Assembly: GCF_018139625.1 (NCBI RefSeq) | Contig: NZ_JAGSOH010000002.1 | Coordinates: 1 to 64,000 of the forward strand | Length of the DNA stretch: 64,000 nucleotides | Direction of reading: 5' to 3' | Source of the DNA: Actinospica acidithermotolerans | Lineage (GTDB): Bacteria; Actinomycetota; Actinomycetes; Streptomycetales; Catenulisporaceae | Program-made: the position numbers and the translations under genes | Notes under the pieces: model-generated | What the model was told of the DNA's origin: nothing | What the model saw: the letters and a program-made list of their open reading frames with translations, nothing else | The model's database searches: none | Shown: positions 36,123 through 52,670 of the stretch, one piece after another | Layout of the letters: each line of letters starts with the position of its first letter | Numbering within the stretch: position 1 is the first letter of the stretch

Positions 36123-38141
36123 CTACGCCCTCAAGTTGACGAGCACCGGGGGCGTCCTTATTCCATCCGGGGTCGCGAGCGAGATCAGCGCGTGCCCGAC
36201 CGGGACCTCGTTGATGATGTCCGAGGGCGACCACACGTACCGCTCCACGGCCCTCGTGGAGACCGCGCGGTTGTACTGCGTGCTGGTCGAGCCGGTCAGC
36301 GACTGCACGACGGACTTCTCGCCGCCGCGGCCGAAGCGGCCCGGCGAGCCCGGCGTGGACATGTGGCCGGAGGTCGTGGTCGTCGCGGTGCCGGTGGTCA
36401 CGGTCGTCTCCGCGGCCCACGACGTGCCCCAGTAGTCCGCGAAGTAGCGCGCGTCCGCGGGCTCGACGCCGGCGAACACCGCCTTGCAGCCGGTGCCGGT
36501 GAACACGGCCGAGCGCAGGTGCTCGGGGAACTGGGCGAGGGACTGGGCCAGCAGCACGATCCCCGCGTTCGCCGCGCGGGCCCGCTGCAGGCCCTGGACG
36601 ACGTACTCGTCGACGAAGCGGCCCGCCTCGTCCACGATCAGGCCCTTGAAGACCTCGCGGTTCGCCTCGGGCGCCGCGACCACCTGCACGAACTGCGCGA
36701 TGGCGAGCCGGGCGAGGATCCGCGCCGCCTGCGGCGAGCTGCCCTCCGGAAGCGCGATCCGCACCCGCAGCGGCCGGTCGATGTCGCGCATCGAGAACTT
36801 GCGCGGCCGGCCGTCGAACAGGTCGATCAGCTGCGGCCGGTCGAGCAGCCGCAACCGCTCGTTGAGCAGCGGCACCGGGCTCTGCGTCTGCACCAGGTCG
36901 AGCAGCTCGCGCAGCAGCGGGTAGCGGCCGTTGCGCTCGTGGAACTCCGCGATGACCGTGTAGAGCGTGTTGCGGGCCGCCGAGTCCACGGCCGGGTCGT
37001 GCACCGCGGTGTCCGGCGGGAGCACCGCGCCGGCCAGCCGGTCCGCCGCCTCCTCGGGCCCGCTCGCGCCGCCGAACAGGTCGAAGCCCCATGATCCAGG
37101 ACCGGGCTCCGCGTTCGGGTCGATGTCCACGTCGAAGAAGTCCGGCAGCTGCCGCGCGTCGAAGGCGGAACCGGTCGGGTCGATCACGACGACCGAGGCC
37201 ATCCCGACGAGGGTCTGCAGGCCGAGCAGCTCGATGATCGGCCGCGCGAAGGAGCGCGTCTTTCCGGCTCCGGGCGGCCCGACCACCAGCATCGAGGTGC
37301 GCAGGACCTCGGTGTCGAGCGCGAACCACTCCTTCTGGTGGGTCGCGGGGTTCCGGTCCGTCTCCGCGGCCACGCCGAGCCGGGCCTGGCCGGTGACCAG
37401 GTCGTGCTGCACGAGCCGCGGCATCGGCAGGTCGCGCTGGCCGGAGGAGTGCAGGAACGCGCCGCCGCCCTGCTCCTGGATCGCCACCGCTATCGGCTCG
37501 AGCTCGGCCAGGCCGTTCTGCCGCGCCGTGCGCTGCACGACCCGCGCCACCCGGACGTAGTCCACGTCCGTCAGCTCGCCGGTGGCGACCTCCTCGTCGA
37601 GCCGCCGCGCGGCGTCCGCGAAGCCCGCCTCGCGCAGGTCGGCCCACAGGTCGGGGCGCGGCTTGGGCACCGGGGCCGGCGGCTTCGGCTCGGGCCGGTA
37701 CCGGAGCCAGAGCCAGCGCGCGACGATGTGCCAGCGGCCGTAGCCGCCGACGCCGACCAGGACGATCAGCAGGGCGAGGACGTTGTCCGCCGGAAGCTTG
37801 AGGTAGGACAGCAGCAGCCCGAGCGGTAGCAGCGCCGCCAGGTAGATCGGCAGGAAGAGGTAGAGCGCGAGCCGGGCCCGGCGCCAGATGTGCGGTTCGA
37901 GCGGACCGGGCCGGCCGCCCTCGCTTTCATCCGGGTTGCGGCCGTAGGCGAACACGCCGGGCGCGTCGAGCACGCGGTCGCCGTGCACCCAGCTGACCAG
38001 GTCGGGCCGGGTCCGCTCGGTCCAGGCCGAGCCGGTCCAGTAGCGCAACTGCGGCGAGCCGCTCGGACACGGGTACCAGCCCTCCGGCATCCGCTGCCGC
38101 CGCGGCCCCGCTACCGCGGAAACGCCGTCCTCCACCGCCAC
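36123..38141 (-). CDS. DUF2510-containing VirD4/TraD-like membrane ATPase
   Basis: A 672-residue protein from GTG 38141, with GGGGAG upstream. Residues 15-50 form a DUF2510 motif ('GWYPCPSG...RYWTGSAWTER'). Two hydrophobic helices follow (about 95-145). The ATPase core has Walker A 'VVGPPGAGKTRSFARP' (about residue 285), 'VVVIDPTGSAFDA', and Walker B 'GLIVDEAGRFVDEY' (about residue 500), followed by 'GIVLLAQSLAQFPEHLRSAVF' as in TraG/VirD4 coupling proteins. Such proteins move DNA or protein through type IV channels, but no relaxase, pilin or channel gene is near. It may have a housekeeping role or be a remnant of an integrated element. Confidence 0.8.
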   Translation of the reverse strand: MAVEDGVSAVAGPRRQRMPEGWYPCPSGSPQLRYWTGSAWTERTRPDLVSWVHGDRVLDAPGVFAYGRNPDESEGGRPGPLEPHIWRRARLALYLFLPIYLAALLPLGLLLSYLKLPADNVLALLIVLVGVGGYGRWHIVARWLWLRYRPEPKPPAPVPKPRPDLWADLREAGFADAARRLDEEVATGELTDVDYVRVARVVQRTARQNGLAELEPIAVAIQEQGGGAFLHSSGQRDLPMPRLVQHDLVTGQARLGVAAETDRNPATHQKEWFALDTEVLRTSMLVVGPPGAGKTRSFARPIIELLGLQTLVGMASVVVIDPTGSAFDARQLPDFFDVDIDPNAEPGPGSWGFDLFGGASGPEEAADRLAGAVLPPDTAVHDPAVDSAARNTLYTVIAEFHERNGRYPLLRELLDLVQTQSPVPLLNERLRLLDRPQLIDLFDGRPRKFSMRDIDRPLRVRIALPEGSSPQAARILARLAIAQFVQVVAAPEANREVFKGLIVDEAGRFVDEYVVQGLQRARAANAGIVLLAQSLAQFPEHLRSAVFTGTGCKAVFAGVEPADARYFADYWGTSWAAETTVTTGTATTTTSGHMSTPGSPGRFGRGGEKSVVQSLTGSTSTQYNRAVSTRAVERYVWSPSDIINEVPVGHALISLATPDGIRTPPVLVNLRA

Positions 38142-41526: not shown

Positions 41527-41568
41527 CATCGTGCAATCGGCGTATATAAGTACGCCGATTGCACGATG
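41527..41568 (-). terminator. Long perfect hairpin after mmsA
   Basis: CATCGTGCAATCGGCGTA (41527-41544) is the exact inverse of TACGCCGATTGCACGATG (41551-41568), an 18-base stem with loop TATAAG. On the minus strand it is followed by GTTTCGT, a weak U-run, which fits a terminator of the long leftward operon. It also lies 33 bases ahead of the AbiEi-like start codon. Confidence 0.65.
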
Positions 41569-43212: not shown

Positions 43213-43255
43213 CACCCCGTGCGGACTACCCCGCGGACCACCCCGTGCGGACTAC
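43213..43255. repeat. Three tandem GC-rich units at the FAD oxidoreductase stop codon
   Basis: Units CCCCGTGCGGACTA (43215-43228), CCCCGCGGACCA (43229-43240) and CCCCGTGCGGACTA (43241-43254). The stop codon (TAG, complement of 43252-43254) ends the rightmost unit, and the outer copies are identical over 17 bases (43213-43229, 43239-43255). Confidence 0.85.
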
Positions 43256-44649
43256 GAGTCGAAGCCGAGACCGAAGCGGTCCAGCGTGCGCAGCCAGAGG
43301 TTGCGCTTGCCGCCGTTGCGGTCCGCGCGGCCCAGCGACCAGGCCGTGGCGTTGATGCCGATGGACTTGAACGGCTCCGGCGGGAACGGCAGCGGCTTCG
43401 ACTTCACCATCTCCAGCTCGGTCAGTTCGGTCTGCTCGCCGGACAGCAGGTCCAGCATGACCTGCGCGCCGAACCGGGTCGCGCCTACGCCTAATCCGGT
43501 GAAGCCAGCCGCGTACGCCACTCGTCCGTCGTAAGCCGTGTCGAAGAACGCGCAGAACCTGGTGCACGTGTCGATGACGCCGCCCCACTTGTGGGTGAAG
43601 GCCACCTCCGCCAACTGGGGGAACGCCTCGTAGAAGTGCCGCGCCAGCTTCTCGAAGGTCTTCGGACGCTGGTCGAGTTCCGGCGCGATGCGGCTGCCGA
43701 AGTGGTGGACGGCGTCGTAGCCGCCCCACAGGATCCGGTTGTCCGCGCTCAGCCGGTAGTAGTGGAAGTGGTTCGCGCTGTCGCCGATCCCCTGGCGGTT
43801 GCGCCAGCCGATCGACTCCATCTGCGCGTCCGTCAGCGGCTCGGTCATCAGCGCGTAGTCGTAGACCGGCACGATGTACGGCCGCACCCGCTTGACCAGC
43901 GACGGGAAGACGTTCGTGCCGAGAGCCACCCGTTCGGCCGAGATCTGACGGCCGTTCAGGGTACGCAGCGCCATCCCCTTCTCGGTCTTCTCCAGCCCGG
44001 TGACGCGCGTACCCTCGTAGATCTTCACGCCGAGCGCGAGGCAGGCATCGCGCAGCCCCCAGGCTAGCTTGGCCGGGTGCACCATCGCGCAGCCCTCGCG
44101 GTCCCACAGGCCCGCGAGGTAGGTCGGCGAATCGACTTGGGCGCGGATCGCCTCGCGGTCGAGGAACTCCACGTGCTCGCCGTACTGCCCGGCCACGTCC
44201 GCGTACTCGGCCAGGTCCTTCGCCTGCCATTCCGCGGTGGCCACGCTCAGCTGGCCGGTGCGCTCGAAGTCGCAGTCGATGCCGTAGCGCTCCACACTCG
44301 CCTGCATCGCGTCCAGGTTCGCCTCGCCGAGCTTGACCAGGGTGCGCAGCTCCGGCTCGAAGCGGTCGATCCCGTTCGGAAGCCCGTGGGTGAGCGACGC
44401 CTCGGCGAAGCCGCCGTTGCGCCCGGAGGCCGCCCAGCCGATCCGGTTCGCCTCGACGAGCACGACCTCGCGGCCGGGATCCCGCTCCTTGGCGATCAGC
44501 GCGGTCCACAGCCCGCTGTACCCGCCGCCGACCACCGCCAGATCGCAGGTCAGGTCCTCGGCGAGGGCGGGCAGGGCAGCCGGCCGGCCGGGGTCGTCCA
44601 GCCAGAACGGCACCGGCGCGGCCCCGGCCAACGCATGGCTGACTTCCAT
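43252..44649 (-). CDS. FAD-dependent amine/gamma-glutamylputrescine oxidase-like protein
   Basis: A 465-residue DAO-family flavoprotein from ATG 44649 with GAGAGGGA upstream. The FAD motif is 'DLAVVGGGYSGLWTALIA', followed by 'WAASGRNGGFAEASLTHGLP' and a C-terminal 'GFTGLGVGATRFGAQVML'. The GRNGGF segment is shared with PuuB and related polyamine oxidoreductases. It lies directly downstream of the PotABCD transporter genes, supporting oxidation of imported polyamines or their gamma-glutamyl derivatives. The exact substrate is not known. Confidence 0.83.
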   Translation of the reverse strand: MEVSHALAGAAPVPFWLDDPGRPAALPALAEDLTCDLAVVGGGYSGLWTALIAKERDPGREVVLVEANRIGWAASGRNGGFAEASLTHGLPNGIDRFEPELRTLVKLGEANLDAMQASVERYGIDCDFERTGQLSVATAEWQAKDLAEYADVAGQYGEHVEFLDREAIRAQVDSPTYLAGLWDREGCAMVHPAKLAWGLRDACLALGVKIYEGTRVTGLEKTEKGMALRTLNGRQISAERVALGTNVFPSLVKRVRPYIVPVYDYALMTEPLTDAQMESIGWRNRQGIGDSANHFHYYRLSADNRILWGGYDAVHHFGSRIAPELDQRPKTFEKLARHFYEAFPQLAEVAFTHKWGGVIDTCTRFCAFFDTAYDGRVAYAAGFTGLGVGATRFGAQVMLDLLSGEQTELTELEMVKSKPLPFPPEPFKSIGINATAWSLGRADRNGGKRNLWLRTLDRFGLGFDS

Positions 44650-44772
44650 GGGGATCCCTCTCACTGTGTCTGAAAAGCGCTTGCTGAATTCATCCTGGCG
44701 CCGGCCGTGGGGCGCGCACCAAAGGCAACGGTGTCCGATCACCTCCTCGAATCTTGCACTCTGGAAGTTCGC

Positions 44773-44824
44773 ACCGCCGCCCGAAACGCTCGGGCGGCGG
44801 TCTCCGCGAAGACCGCCGCCCGAG
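44773..44824 (-). promoter_or_regulatory. Two mutually exclusive hairpins after potC
   Basis: Segment B (CTCGGGCGGCGGTC, 44789-44802) pairs perfectly with segment C (44811-44824) over 14 bases, loop TCCGCGAA. Most of B (44791-44801) can instead pair with segment A (ACCGCCGCCCG, 44773-44783) over 11 bases. On the minus strand C-B forms first, immediately after the potC stop. It is a terminator or attenuator candidate. Confidence 0.55.
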
Positions 44825-44840
44825 TGAGAACCGCCGCGTG

Positions 44841-45647
44841 TTACGCCTTACGGGTCTTGATGATCTGCGGCACCTGGGCGAACGTGATGCCGGCCAGCGT
44901 GATGAGCAGCATCGTCGAACCGATGACGTCGATCTGCGCCGGGACCGAGTGCTGGAACGAGGAGTAGACGTACATCGGGAACGTCACCTCGTTGCCGGCC
45001 GTCAGTACCGTGATGATGTAGTCGTCGATCGACAGCGCGAAGGAGAGCAGTGCTGCGGCCAGGATGCCCGGCATCACCAGCGGCAGCGTCACCCGGCGGA
45101 AGGTCTGGAACGGCGTCGCGTACAGGTCCGCAGCCGCGTTCTCCAGCGTCGGATCCATGCCCGCGAGCCGCGCCTTGACTGTCACGACCACATAGCTCAG
45201 CGAGAACATCACGTGCGCGATGATGATCGTGTCGAAGCCGAGCGAGTTGCTGCCGGTCGTGTTGTAGAAGAAGGTCATCAGGGTGATGCCCATGGTGACC
45301 TCGGGCGCCGCCATCGGCAGGAACAGCAGCACGTTCAGGAATGTGCGGCCCTGGAACCGGTAGCGCATCATCGCGAAGGCGACCATCGTGCCGAGCGCCG
45401 TCGCCAAGATCATCGTGATGATCGCGATGGTGATCGACAGCTTGATCGACGAGCACATGTCCGCGCTCGCGCACGGGTTCTTCCACGCGTTCAGGGAGAA
45501 CTTGTGCCAGACGAAGTTGTACTTGTTCGCCGGCTGGTTGAAGGAGAACAGCAGCATGACCGCGTTCGGCGCGATCAGGAAGACGAAGATCAGGATGGCG
45601 ACGAACCCGAGGGTGTGCGCCTTGATCCAGTCGAAGGTCTTGGTCAT
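44841..45647 (-). CDS. potC: Polyamine ABC transporter permease PotC-like
   Basis: A 268-residue six-helix permease starting at ATG 45647, which overlaps the potB stop (TGATG). It contains 'FNVLLFLPMAAPEVTMGITL'-type helices and the EAA loop 'LENAAADLYATPFQTFRRVTLP' that contacts the ATPase. It is the inner-membrane partner of PotB. A strong hairpin lies just downstream, before the FAD oxidoreductase gene. Confidence 0.92.
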   Translation of the reverse strand: MTKTFDWIKAHTLGFVAILIFVFLIAPNAVMLLFSFNQPANKYNFVWHKFSLNAWKNPCASADMCSSIKLSITIAIITMILATALGTMVAFAMMRYRFQGRTFLNVLLFLPMAAPEVTMGITLMTFFYNTTGSNSLGFDTIIIAHVMFSLSYVVVTVKARLAGMDPTLENAAADLYATPFQTFRRVTLPLVMPGILAAALLSFALSIDDYIITVLTAGNEVTFPMYVYSSFQHSVPAQIDVIGSTMLLITLAGITFAQVPQIIKTRKA

Positions 45648-46570
45648 CACAGCAGATCCTCCGAACCGGCCTTTTTGACGTACGCGAGCACGATCAGCAG
45701 CGTGCCGAAGGTGAGGATGACGCCCATCGCGGACGCGATCGGATAGCCGAAGACGTCGCGCAGCGCCTCGTTCTCGATGACCTGCCCGATCACCTGCGTG
45801 TTCGGGCTGCCGAGCATGTAGGCGTTGACGTAGTCTCCGACCGCCGGGATGAACGTCAGCAGAGTGCCGGCGATCACGCCGGGCAGGGACAGCGGCCAGG
45901 TGACGTAGCGCCAGGTCCGGTAGCCCGAGCAGTACAGGTCGCGGCCGGCCTCGTGAAGTCGCGGGTCGATCTTCTCCAGCGACGTGTAGAGCGGCAGGAC
46001 CGTGAACGGCAGGAAGTTGTAGACCATGCCGAACACGACCGAGAAGGGGCTGTTGAGCACGTGGTTCCCGGTGATCAGGCCCAGGTGGTCCATCAGGTTC
46101 GTGATCCGCAGGTCGATCATGATCCGGACCACGGTGCCGTGGTCGGACAGGATCGTCTCCCATGCGATCGTGCGGATCAGGAAGCTGGTGAACGCGGGCG
46201 CGATCACCAGCGCCATCAGCAGGTTCTTCCACTTGCCGCCGCGGAAGGCGATGAAGTACGCGAGCGGATAGCCGAGCAGCAGGCAGATCACCGTGCACGC
46301 GATCGAGTAGATCAGCGAGTGGATGATCTCGGTGTTGTAGGTGCTGAACGTGGACGAGTAGTTCGCCCAGTTCCAGGTGACCTTGAAGCCCATGTCCAGG
46401 CTGCCGGTCTGGATCGAGGCCGAGATCGCGGTGATGATCGGGATCAGGAAGAAGACCACCAGCCACAGCACGCCGGGCGCGAGCAGGAGGTACGGCAGCA
46501 GGTTGCGCTTCTTCTTCGGCGCGCCGAGGACCTCGGAGGCCTTCGGCGGCGCTTCGGTCAGAGTGGTCAC
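45647..46570 (-). CDS. potB: Polyamine ABC transporter permease PotB-like
   Basis: A 307-residue permease with a Pro/Lys-rich cytoplasmic N-terminus and six helices, including 'LPYLLLAPGVLWLVVFFLIP' and 'FLIRTIAWETILSDHG', typical of PotB. The EAA loop is 'EAGRDLYCSGYRTWRYVTWP'. Its start overlaps the potA stop (ATGA at 46567-46570) and its stop overlaps the potC start, so the three are tightly coupled. Confidence 0.92.
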   Translation of the reverse strand: MTTLTEAPPKASEVLGAPKKKRNLLPYLLLAPGVLWLVVFFLIPIITAISASIQTGSLDMGFKVTWNWANYSSTFSTYNTEIIHSLIYSIACTVICLLLGYPLAYFIAFRGGKWKNLLMALVIAPAFTSFLIRTIAWETILSDHGTVVRIMIDLRITNLMDHLGLITGNHVLNSPFSVVFGMVYNFLPFTVLPLYTSLEKIDPRLHEAGRDLYCSGYRTWRYVTWPLSLPGVIAGTLLTFIPAVGDYVNAYMLGSPNTQVIGQVIENEALRDVFGYPIASAMGVILTFGTLLIVLAYVKKAGSEDLL

Positions 46571-49107: not shown

Positions 49108-50595
49108 TCAGGCGTCGAAGACGGTCCGGTGCCAGTCCTTGCGGGCCAGCCCGGTGATGTCGTGCATGACGTGCTTGACCTGGGTGTACTCCTCGAGCGA
49201 GTACGCGGACATGTCCTTGCCGTAGCCGGACTGCTTGTAGCCGCCGTGCGGCATCTCGCTGATGATCGGGATGTGGTCGTTGATCCACACGCAGCCGGCC
49301 TTGATGTCGCGGCTGGCCCGGTGCGCGCGGACCAGGTCCTTGGTCCACGCGGAGGCGGCGAGGCCGAACGGGGTGTCGTTGGCCAGGCGGACGGCTTCGT
49401 CATCGGAGTCGAAGGGCAGGGCGACCAGGGCCGGGCCGAACAGCTCCTGCTGGACGATCTCCGAGTCCTGGCTCACGCCGGTCACCAGGGTGGGCCGGTA
49501 GTAGGCGCCGTTCTCGAACTCGGTCCCGCGCAGCTCCGCCGGGAACTCGCCGCCGACCACGATCTTGGCGCCGTAGCCGCGGGCGCGCTCCACGAACGCG
49601 GCGACGGAATCCCGCTGGCGCACCGAGCTGAGCGGGCCGAGGTCGGTGGCGGGGTCGTTCGGGTCGCCCAGCTTGACGGCGGCGAAAAGCTCCGCGACGC
49701 CCTCGACGAACTCGTCGAAGCGGCTGCGGTGCACGTAGGCGCGGGTGGCGGCCGTGCAGTCCTGGCCGGTGTTGATCAGCGATCCGGCGACGGCACCGTG
49801 GATGGCCGCCTCCAGGTCCGCGTCGTCGAACACGACGAAGGGCGCCTTGCCGCCGAGCTCCAGATGCACGCGCTTGACGGTCTGCGCGGCGATCTCGGCG
49901 ATGCGCTTGCCGACCGGCGTGGACCCGGTGAACGAGACCATGTCGACGTCGGGGTGGCCGATCAGCGCCTCGCCGGCAACCCGGCCGAGCCCGGTGACGA
50001 CGTTGACCACGCCGTTCGGAATACCCGCCTCGGTGCACGCCTCGGCGAAGGCCAGCGCCGTCAGCGGGGTGATCTCGGCGGGCTTGAGCACGATCGTGTT
50101 GCCCGCGGCGATGGCCGGCAGTATCTTCCACGCGGCCATCTGCAGCGGGTAGTTCCACGGCGCGATCGAGCCGACCACGCCGATCGGCTCGCGGCGGATC
50201 GAGGAGGCGTGCAGGCCGCTGTACTCGGCCTGCGCCTTGCCCTCGAGGTGGCGCGCGGCGCCGGCGAAGAACGCGACGTTGTCCACCGTGCCCGGCACGT
50301 CGAAGTTCGTGGTCAGCCGGATCGGCTTGCCGGTCTGCGAGGTCTCGAGCCTCGCCAGCTGCGCGGACCGCCCGTCGAGGATCGCGGCCAGCTTGTGCAT
50401 CAGGGTGCTGCGCTCGCCGGGGGTGGCGCCGGCCCAGCCTGGCAGTGCGGCGCGCGCGGCGGCCACCGCCCGGTCCACGTCGGCCGGACCCGCGTGCACC
50501 GAGCTCGCGATCACCCGGCCGGTGGCCGGGTCGAGGACCGACAGCCCCTCGTCTCCTGTGCCGTCCGCGAGCCCGCCGTCGATGTACTGGTGCAT
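49108..50595 (-). CDS. Aldehyde dehydrogenase, probable gamma-aminobutyraldehyde dehydrogenase
   Basis: A 495-residue protein from ATG 50595 with GGGAG upstream. It shows 'SIAPWNYPLQMAAWKILPAI', 'SFTGSTPVGKRI', 'VHLELGGKAPFVVFDDAD' and the catalytic segment 'NTGQDCTAATRAYV'. This is the aminobutyraldehyde/betaine aldehyde subgroup (PatD/YdcW-like). First gene of the leftward operon that contains PotDABC, it would oxidise the aldehyde made from putrescine to GABA. Divergent from the PucR regulator across a 407-bp region rich in inverted repeats. Confidence 0.88.
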   Translation of the reverse strand: MHQYIDGGLADGTGDEGLSVLDPATGRVIASSVHAGPADVDRAVAAARAALPGWAGATPGERSTLMHKLAAILDGRSAQLARLETSQTGKPIRLTTNFDVPGTVDNVAFFAGAARHLEGKAQAEYSGLHASSIRREPIGVVGSIAPWNYPLQMAAWKILPAIAAGNTIVLKPAEITPLTALAFAEACTEAGIPNGVVNVVTGLGRVAGEALIGHPDVDMVSFTGSTPVGKRIAEIAAQTVKRVHLELGGKAPFVVFDDADLEAAIHGAVAGSLINTGQDCTAATRAYVHRSRFDEFVEGVAELFAAVKLGDPNDPATDLGPLSSVRQRDSVAAFVERARGYGAKIVVGGEFPAELRGTEFENGAYYRPTLVTGVSQDSEIVQQELFGPALVALPFDSDDEAVRLANDTPFGLAASAWTKDLVRAHRASRDIKAGCVWINDHIPIISEMPHGGYKQSGYGKDMSAYSLEEYTQVKHVMHDITGLARKDWHRTVFDA

Positions 50596-51002
50596 AGTGT
50601 CCGCTCCCGGAGCGTGATCGGTCTTCCCTGGCTTCCAGCGCCCTTCAGACGCTTTGGCGCCGAAGCTCGTGCAGCTTTGGCAGGTTGTCTGAACAGGGCG
50701 CTCCCGGCGTCCGCGACCACGCTGCCGCTCTGACCGAAGGATCGTGACATAGACCACGCGCTTCCGACAAGGGATTCCGCAGGGAAACTTGGTCTGAACG
50801 ACGGATTCTTGATGACTTTCCGATCACGATCGTCGAAGTCCGTCGTTCGAGGGAAAGTTCTGGCACCTTGCCAGTCGGCCGTCCAGCTGTCAGAGTGCCT
50901 GTTGTAGGCCCATTCGAGCGACAACCTGTCGCAACCCGGCATGACGGGCGGATGAACGGCCGCTCACGCGCTCCCCGAATCCCGATGGAAAGCCTGACGA
51001 CG
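50596..51002. promoter_or_regulatory. 407-bp divergent region between the aldehyde dehydrogenase and pucR
   Basis: No gene is seen here. Three inverted repeats are visible: TTCAGAC (50644-50650) with GTCTGAA (50687-50693), extended imperfectly by CGCCCT and AGGGCG arms; GAACGACGGA (50798-50807) with TCCGTCGTTC (50841-50850), a perfect 10-base pair; and CTGGCA-cct-TGCCAG (50862-50876). GCTTTGGC is repeated at 50651-50658 and 50674-50681. The two distal repeats lie nearer pucR and are the best candidates for PucR binding. Confidence 0.5.
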
Positions 51003-52670
51003 ATGTCCCTGCCTCCCACCGACCAGCCCGATCCGCGGGCGACGCTGCTGCCCGGGTACCCGACCGTCGCCGAGGTGCTCGCGCTCGACGCGGTGCGCCA
51101 GGGCAACCCGCGCGTGGTGGCGGGCACGGCGGGGCTGGACCGGCGGGTGCGCTGGGTGCACGTGACGGAGCTGACCGACGTGCGCGAGATCCTGCGCGGC
51201 GGCGAACTGGTGCTCTCCACGGCGATCGCCTGGCCGGACGACCGTGAGTCGCTCGCGAGGTACATAGCCGACCTGGCCGGGCTCGGCGCCGCCGGCCTGG
51301 TCGTCGAGCTGGGCCGACGCTACCCGCAGGCCCCGCCGAAGCCGCTGCTGCTCGCCGCGGAGAAGCACCGCCTTCCGGTCATCACGCTCGGCCGCGACAC
51401 CCGTTTCGTGACGATTACCGAGGCGGTCCACGCGCGGATCATCGACGCGCAGCTCGCGGAACTGCGGGCCTCCGAAGAGGTTCACCAAACCTTTACCGAA
51501 CTCGCGGTCGAGGGAGCCGAGCCGGGCGAGGTCGTCCGGCAGATAGCCAAGATGGCCGGGCACCCGGTCGTGCTGGAGAACCTGGCGCACCAGGTACTCG
51601 TCTACGACACGGCCACGACCACGGAGGAGGCGCTGCTCGACGGCTGGGAGGGCCGCTCCCGCGCCGTGCGCCCGGCGACGCGGACCGCGTACGACGAGCG
51701 TTCCGGCTGGCTGACCACGGTCGTCGGCGCGCGCGGCCAGGACTGGGGCCGGCTCGTGCTCGTCTGCGACGGCATCCCGGCCCCCGCCCCGAGCCGCCTG
51801 GTCATGCTGGCCGAGCGCGGCGCGGCGACCCTGGCGCTGAACCGGCTCATGCAGCGCGACCGCGAGTCGCTGGAGCGCCAGACCCACCGCACGCTGCTGA
51901 CGGCGATCCTCAACCACGCGCACTCCTCGTCCGAGATATCGCTGCGTGCGCGTGCGATAGGCGTTCGCCTCGACGACAAGCGCCTGGTCGGCATCGTGCT
52001 CCGGCTGCGCGGCCACGCCTCCTCGCTCGAGCACCAGTCCCGCCTGCGCGAACTCACCGACAACGCGGCGGCCGCCGTCCGCGACAAGCGCCTCGCCGCC
52101 CTGATCGGCGCCGTGGACGAACACTCCGTAGGCCTGCTGCTCGCCCTCGGCCCGCAGGACCGCGAGGACGTCGCGCTGGAGACGTTCGCCAGTTCGGTGC
52201 GCAAGCTCGCCGGCCCCGACGGCGGCGACTTCGCCATCGCCGTGGGTACGTCCGTCGGCGCCGTTCGCGACGCGCGCAGGTCGCTCCTCGAGGCAGTGCA
52301 GGTCGCCGACGCCGCGATCCGCCAGACCGGCGGCCCCTCGTACCACCGCCTCGTGGACGTGCGCCTCAGGGGTCTGCTGCACCTGCTGCGCGACGACGCG
52401 CGGCTGCAGACATACGTCGAGCGCGAGCTCGGCCCCCTGCTCGCCTACGACACCGAGCGCGGCACCAACCTCGTCGCCATGCTCGGCATCTACCTCGACC
52501 AGGGCCGCAACAAGTCCGCCGCCGCCGACGCCGCGCACCTGTCCCGCCCCTCGTTCTACGAGCGGCTGCACCGCATCGAGCGCGTCCTCGGCGTCGACCT
52601 CGACTCGGTGGAGTCCTGCCTCTCCCTGCACGTCGCGCTGCTGGCGCTGGAGGCCGTACGCAACGTCTGA
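51003..52670 (+). CDS. PucR-family transcriptional regulator
   Basis: A 555-residue regulator if ATG 51003 is used; ATG 50985 and others upstream are possible. It has an N-terminal PucR ligand-type domain (about residues 17-140, 'GYPTVAEVLALDAVRQGNPRVVAG'), a central GGDEF-like region, and a C-terminal helix-turn-helix (about 498-525, 'NKSAAADAAHLSRPSFYERL'). The group controls nitrogen-compound catabolism (purines, GABA, polyamines) in actinobacteria. Its position, divergent from the aldehyde dehydrogenase and pot operon, suggests control of polyamine use. Confidence 0.87.
   Translation: MSLPPTDQPDPRATLLPGYPTVAEVLALDAVRQGNPRVVAGTAGLDRRVRWVHVTELTDVREILRGGELVLSTAIAWPDDRESLARYIADLAGLGAAGLVVELGRRYPQAPPKPLLLAAEKHRLPVITLGRDTRFVTITEAVHARIIDAQLAELRASEEVHQTFTELAVEGAEPGEVVRQIAKMAGHPVVLENLAHQVLVYDTATTTEEALLDGWEGRSRAVRPATRTAYDERSGWLTTVVGARGQDWGRLVLVCDGIPAPAPSRLVMLAERGAATLALNRLMQRDRESLERQTHRTLLTAILNHAHSSSEISLRARAIGVRLDDKRLVGIVLRLRGHASSLEHQSRLRELTDNAAAAVRDKRLAALIGAVDEHSVGLLLALGPQDREDVALETFASSVRKLAGPDGGDFAIAVGTSVGAVRDARRSLLEAVQVADAAIRQTGGPSYHRLVDVRLRGLLHLLRDDARLQTYVERELGPLLAYDTERGTNLVAMLGIYLDQGRNKSAAADAAHLSRPSFYERLHRIERVLGVDLDSVESCLSLHVALLALEAVRNV

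Follow-up and report, generated by a model that had tools for sequence, protein, structure and literature searches.

Structured 3′ ends of transcripts have been mapped by Term-seq in S. clavuligerus and, in the available text of that report, are split into U-rich and U-lacking classes, the latter being likened to the I-shaped terminators of GC-rich genomes (PMC8269248). Classical actinobacterial attenuators, as described in the accessible part of another publication, sit in leaders with leader peptides (PMC1262725). The genes for an aldehyde dehydrogenase, a polyamine ABC transporter, and a PuuB-like FAD oxidoreductase are clustered in S. coelicolor (SCO5666–SCO5671), as they are at the locus studied here, according to the available sections of two reports (PMC9397018, PMC8998196). 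The accessible text of the second report describes the S. coelicolor cluster as including SCO5671, a PuuB-like oxidoreductase which is itself expressed with spermidine and not with putrescine or cadaverine (PMC8998196).

The locus analysed here lies in a stretch of 64,000 nucleotides (the window) from the genome of Actinospica acidithermotolerans. An earlier note on this DNA had proposed an attenuator-like pair of alternative hairpins behind the polyamine transporter genes. The element is, in our assessment, very probably an intrinsic (factor-independent) terminator, GC-rich and poor in U as is found in actinobacteria, which would end the potD-potA-potB-potC unit. The genome of the window is designated G000; G001 and G002 belong to the same genus, Actinospica, of the family Catenulisporaceae.

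Gene neighbourhood of the element

All genes between 49.1 and 41.6 kb are located on the minus strand. In the direction of transcription, a gene for aminobutyraldehyde dehydrogenase (49108–50661) is followed by homologues of potD, potA, potB, and potC, the hairpin, a gene for an FAD-dependent oxidoreductase (43252–44652; DAO family, E 1.7e-59), and mmsA, which here denotes an aldehyde dehydrogenase of the methylmalonate-semialdehyde type. The position of the hairpin bears out the statement of the earlier note that the element comes between potC and the genes for the FAD oxidoreductase and mmsA. The permease gene upstream of the hairpin (44841–45677, with the stop codon read from the sequence at 44841–44843) matched BPD_transp_1 and had PotC as its best model (E 2.9e-52, below the curated cutoff). 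The Pot models in general were the best matches or nearly so, yet stayed below their curated cutoffs; judged from the sequence, the 'pot' names used for the transporter homologues are likely, not proven. A PucR-type regulator gene (50868–52670), recognized by family search, is oriented divergently to the pot cluster. A long minus-strand gene at 36123–38048, whose T4CP label comes from its appearance and not from a family search, adjoins the same cluster in G001, G002, and G004 (73–86% identity).

Structure of the hairpin and the third segment

Because the flanking genes are all encoded on the minus strand, the segments of the element are transcribed in the order C′-B′-A′. The potC stop codon is followed by 16 nt and then by segment C (44810–44824), the 5′ arm in the transcript, a loop of 6 nt (44804–44809), and segment B (44789–44803), the 3′ arm, all on the minus strand. 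As read from the sequence, B and C form a perfect hairpin of 15 bp (44789–44824). The 8-nt tail behind the stem, CGTTTCGG (44781–44788, minus strand), contains three T. Segment A (44773–44784, minus strand), which begins 4 nt after the end of B′ and is transcribed last, repeats 12 nt of segment C and is able to form a perfect 12-bp pairing with B. The three segments and both perfect pairings of the earlier note were recovered, with stems of 15 and 12 bp instead of the reported 14 and 11, each of which had been one short; its description of A and C as near-identical direct repeats was confirmed by 12 identical bases.

The folding energy of C′-B′ was −34.3 kcal/mol (−34.7 for a 37-nt piece), while the A′-B′ hairpin on its own reached −26.5 kcal/mol, being weaker by about 8. 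The 40 nt ending at 44783 folded with −33.8 kcal/mol at 30 °C. For the region 44765–44840, the fold had z-scores of −4.0 on the minus strand and −4.3 on the plus strand, and none of 200 dinucleotide shuffles was as good. Membership in a REP-like repeat family was rejected: the 32-base hairpin core occurs at a single place in the genome, and a 116-base stretch compared with 41 genomes gave no other match better than E 1.8e-4 among the matches listed.

Conservation in relatives

A potC homologue was present in all 14 family genomes, and 13 of them carry a hairpin of at least 8 Watson–Crick pairs between potC and the FAD gene. The exception, G004, has a gap of 32 nt; as a member of the same family with no hairpin, it counts as evidence against a terminator. 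All three Actinospica genomes have a stem of 15 pairs (including two G-U in G002), and the ten genomes of a second genus, which we take to be Catenulispora, have one of 11–13 pairs, G-U included. The hairpin of G001 is 15 bp long, has the same offset of 16 nt as in the window, and is followed by the tail CTTTTCCA. Five of its 15 pairs differ from those of the window, with pairing intact in each; these were counted by eye, not automatically, since MAFFT, applied to the gaps of the three Actinospica genomes, misaligned the arms. Such compensated changes at a shared offset indicate that the stem is kept and its sequence is not. The family as a whole follows the same pattern, with the place of the hairpin retained in 13/14 genomes, pairing preserved, and the sequence drifting both between genera and within Actinospica. 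The comparison of covarying pairs in relatives, suggested in the earlier note, came out in favour of the B-C hairpin and against segment A, which accompanies none of the 12 other family hairpins.

All six Streptacidiphilus loci possess a hairpin of 13–24 pairs starting 13–28 nt after potC; no match to the FAD gene was found downstream of potC in these six loci, one of which (L072) extends for only 94 bases past the match. None of 16 fetched loci from other families of the order has a hairpin, and the FAD gene begins −7 to 67 nt after potC. These loci were obtained from 27 order-level genomes searched, which included 8 more strong matches left unfetched and 3 genomes with weak matches only. Fifteen fetched loci, presumably of Streptomyces, differ from the window in having a potC-FAD gap of 2–67 nt and no hairpin. 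The total of 92 scored loci, in which L068 repeats L002 and from which L130–L132 were left out for lack of a potC match, contained 37 rows with a hairpin, 36 of them distinct. The occurrence of a transporter–oxidase hairpin in 13/14 family genomes versus 0/16 fetched order-level relatives, with the same gene order, offers a natural comparison for terminator-split operons.

Placement of long stems and tails

Stems of at least 12 bp were detected 22 times in 404 kb of this genome (the window and 17 stretches of 20 kb) versus 3 times in three first-order Markov copies, so that about one would be expected. With gene calls from a simple codon-usage script, in which starts are approximate, 12 of these stems lie between codirectional and 6 between convergent genes, one at a contig edge, and 3 inside called genes; none lies between divergent genes. 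This distribution is terminator-like. Of the 19 hairpins outside genes, 14 show 3 or more T among the 8 bases following the stem on a gene-end side as defined by the same calls, the potC hairpin having exactly 3; the remaining 5 do not, which counts against the terminator.

A second perfect hairpin, of 18 bp and with the tail TTTCGTCG, occurs at 41527–41568, 19 nt after the mmsA stop codon, and is likely the terminator closing the FAD-mmsA unit. G002 also has an 18-bp hairpin after mmsA, of different sequence and with the tail TTTCGCG; none was found within 120 nt after mmsA in G001, G004, G010, and G012.

The potC hairpin combines a stable GC-rich stem and a short loop with a location near the 3′ end of a gene. 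Its U-rich tail, for which the available text of PMC8269248 sets a minimum of 3 U among the first 8 nt past the stem, is marginal, with exactly 3 U, and a stricter consensus terminator scan (5 T in 8) did not list the element. This low T content, like the two T in the 8-nt tail of G002, argues against a terminator. It would fit an RNA-stabilizing or processing hairpin, which is identical in appearance; once the potDABC mRNA had been cleaved, or terminated by Rho, such a hairpin would shield its 3′ end against exonucleases, without itself releasing the polymerase. In the accessible part of the S. clavuligerus study, structured 3′ ends without U tracts are regarded as possibly I-shaped terminators or Rho-linked (PMC8269248). 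However, the tail of the window does reach 3 U, and those of G001 and the ten genomes of the second genus contain 3–5 U, which makes a mere stabilizer or processing barrier unlikely.

For the terminator, folding predicts that the 15-bp hairpin would form in the RNA as RNA polymerase leaves potC. The enzyme would then pause on the short CGUUUCG tail, where a fraction of the complexes would presumably release. The mRNA for the FAD oxidoreductase and mmsA would come from read-through or from a promoter not located.

Alternative pairing and the proposed attenuation

Two features of the genes and segments speak for an attenuator: genes for uptake and breakdown flank the element, and neither the 15-bp nor the 12-bp pairing contains a mismatch. 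A choice between B-C and A-B could switch transcription into FAD-mmsA in response to polyamines or translation. An attenuator requires that the competing (antiterminator) pair be available before the terminator hairpin is completed. No such pairing precedes completion in the minus-strand order C′-B′-A′: the geometry is reversed, because C′-B′ is complete before A′ is transcribed and A′-B′ is the weaker hairpin (−26.5 versus −34.7 kcal/mol). Folding of the growing chain in steps of 5 nt likewise retained C′-B′ from 60 nt onward. Nor do relatives preserve the two pairings side by side, whether by conservation or by covariation, segment A being missing in 12/12 other hairpin-bearing family members and in 6/6 Streptacidiphilus loci.

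The segments of the earlier note had been taken on the plus strand, where an attenuator could have such an order; that strand continues into the antisense of potC, and no plus-strand gene was called near the element. An attenuator would also need a sensor, such as a leader peptide, an aptamer, or a protein site; an Rfam scan of the whole window gave no matches at gathering score, and the element lies 16 nt after a stop codon. The 13 matches obtained when 221 bases were scanned with E values of up to 1 allowed, mostly to miRNA and sRNA models drawn by the GC-rich stem, were all far below gathering scores and were rejected as chance. No literature on an attenuator in this cluster was found among the matches listed. 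The attenuator of the earlier note was accordingly abandoned as extremely improbable: the competing segment is transcribed only after the strong hairpin has formed and is absent from every relative examined, and the window gave no Rfam match at gathering score.

Origin of the third segment

When 120-nt stretches were drawn from the same DNA, a 12-nt match to an arm was found in 41 of 19,994 taken at random and in 10 of 2,952 that were mostly intergenic, the stretches being overlapping and not independent. Extrapolation to the 7.9-Mb genome gives about 430 such hairpins, of which about one would be expected to have a third copy by chance; segment A is therefore sufficiently accounted for by partial duplication or by a GC-rich match arising by chance. 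In the 60-nt flanks, the longest copy of an arm measures 12 nt in the window versus 4–5 nt for the 12 other family hairpins; it is the longest flank copy among the hairpins of the scored loci, the next being 7 nt. A smaller three-segment layout was seen in L055 (6110–6149), where convergent genes enclose a 15-bp hairpin whose first arm recurs as a 9-nt copy 2 nt behind the stem.

Segment A could conceivably serve as a fail-safe. If a ribosome following the polymerase closely, for instance, were to cover C, B would pair with A, which by itself gives a 12-bp hairpin of −26.5 kcal/mol, and transcription would stop slightly further on. This is very unlikely, since segment A is private to this genome, only 2 T occur in the 8 bases after it, and a chance copy is not improbable. 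Just as doubtful is the fuller scenario for Actinospica of a leaky terminator between polyamine uptake and oxidation genes, which are back to back in other families, with a shared-arm back-up stop gained by this species for occasions when a ribosome covers the first arm. In the favoured reading as a terminator, segment A repeats part of the first arm, is confined to this lineage, and has no apparent role.

The potC-FAD spacer

As the hairpin is kept in 13/14 family genomes, it may determine how many transporter transcripts are made relative to catabolic ones, and the putative terminator before FAD-mmsA is possibly leaky. A role in separating or scaling transport and catabolism is plausible from the sequence. 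A loose −35/−10 search for an FAD promoter in the gap was negative for G000 and G001 and gave a single weak candidate for G002. In the ten genomes of the second genus, a TACAAT-like block occurs about 5–9 nt before the hairpin (TA[CT]AAT in 7, TACAAA or TATAAA in 3), with no convincing −35 box upstream of it. This block could be a promoter, in which case the FAD mRNA would carry the hairpin at its 5′ end, or a mere A-rich stretch preceding a terminator.

The spacer between the hairpin and the FAD gene also contains a block, CTTCCA..GTGCAAGATT (44745–44770), which is common to G000 and G001 in an otherwise diverged spacer and is missing in G002. GTGCAAGAT has a single occurrence in the window.

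Comparison with known systems

The trp and leuS attenuators of Streptomyces and Corynebacterium resemble the potC element in having three segments, the middle one of which pairs with either side, but in the available text of PMC1262725 they possess a leader with a leader peptide and an antiterminator pair that precedes the terminator. The potC element, in contrast, follows a stop codon and has its competitor last. If the strand of transcription is ignored, a third repeat arising by chance can thus make a GC-rich terminator pass for an attenuator.

The 3′ ends of S. clavuligerus, as far as the accessible text of PMC8269248 describes them, were mapped, whereas the 3′ end at the potC hairpin is a predicted one; this hairpin also differs from the mapped ends in being followed by a 12-nt copy of one arm. 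With its long GC-rich stem, loop of 6 nt, low U content, and location directly past a stop codon, it is similar to both the HS-U-rich and the U-lacking, I-shaped ends, and its folding energy (−33.8 kcal/mol for 40 nt at 30 °C) is beyond the class limit of −23 kcal/mol given in the available text for S. clavuligerus (PMC8269248).
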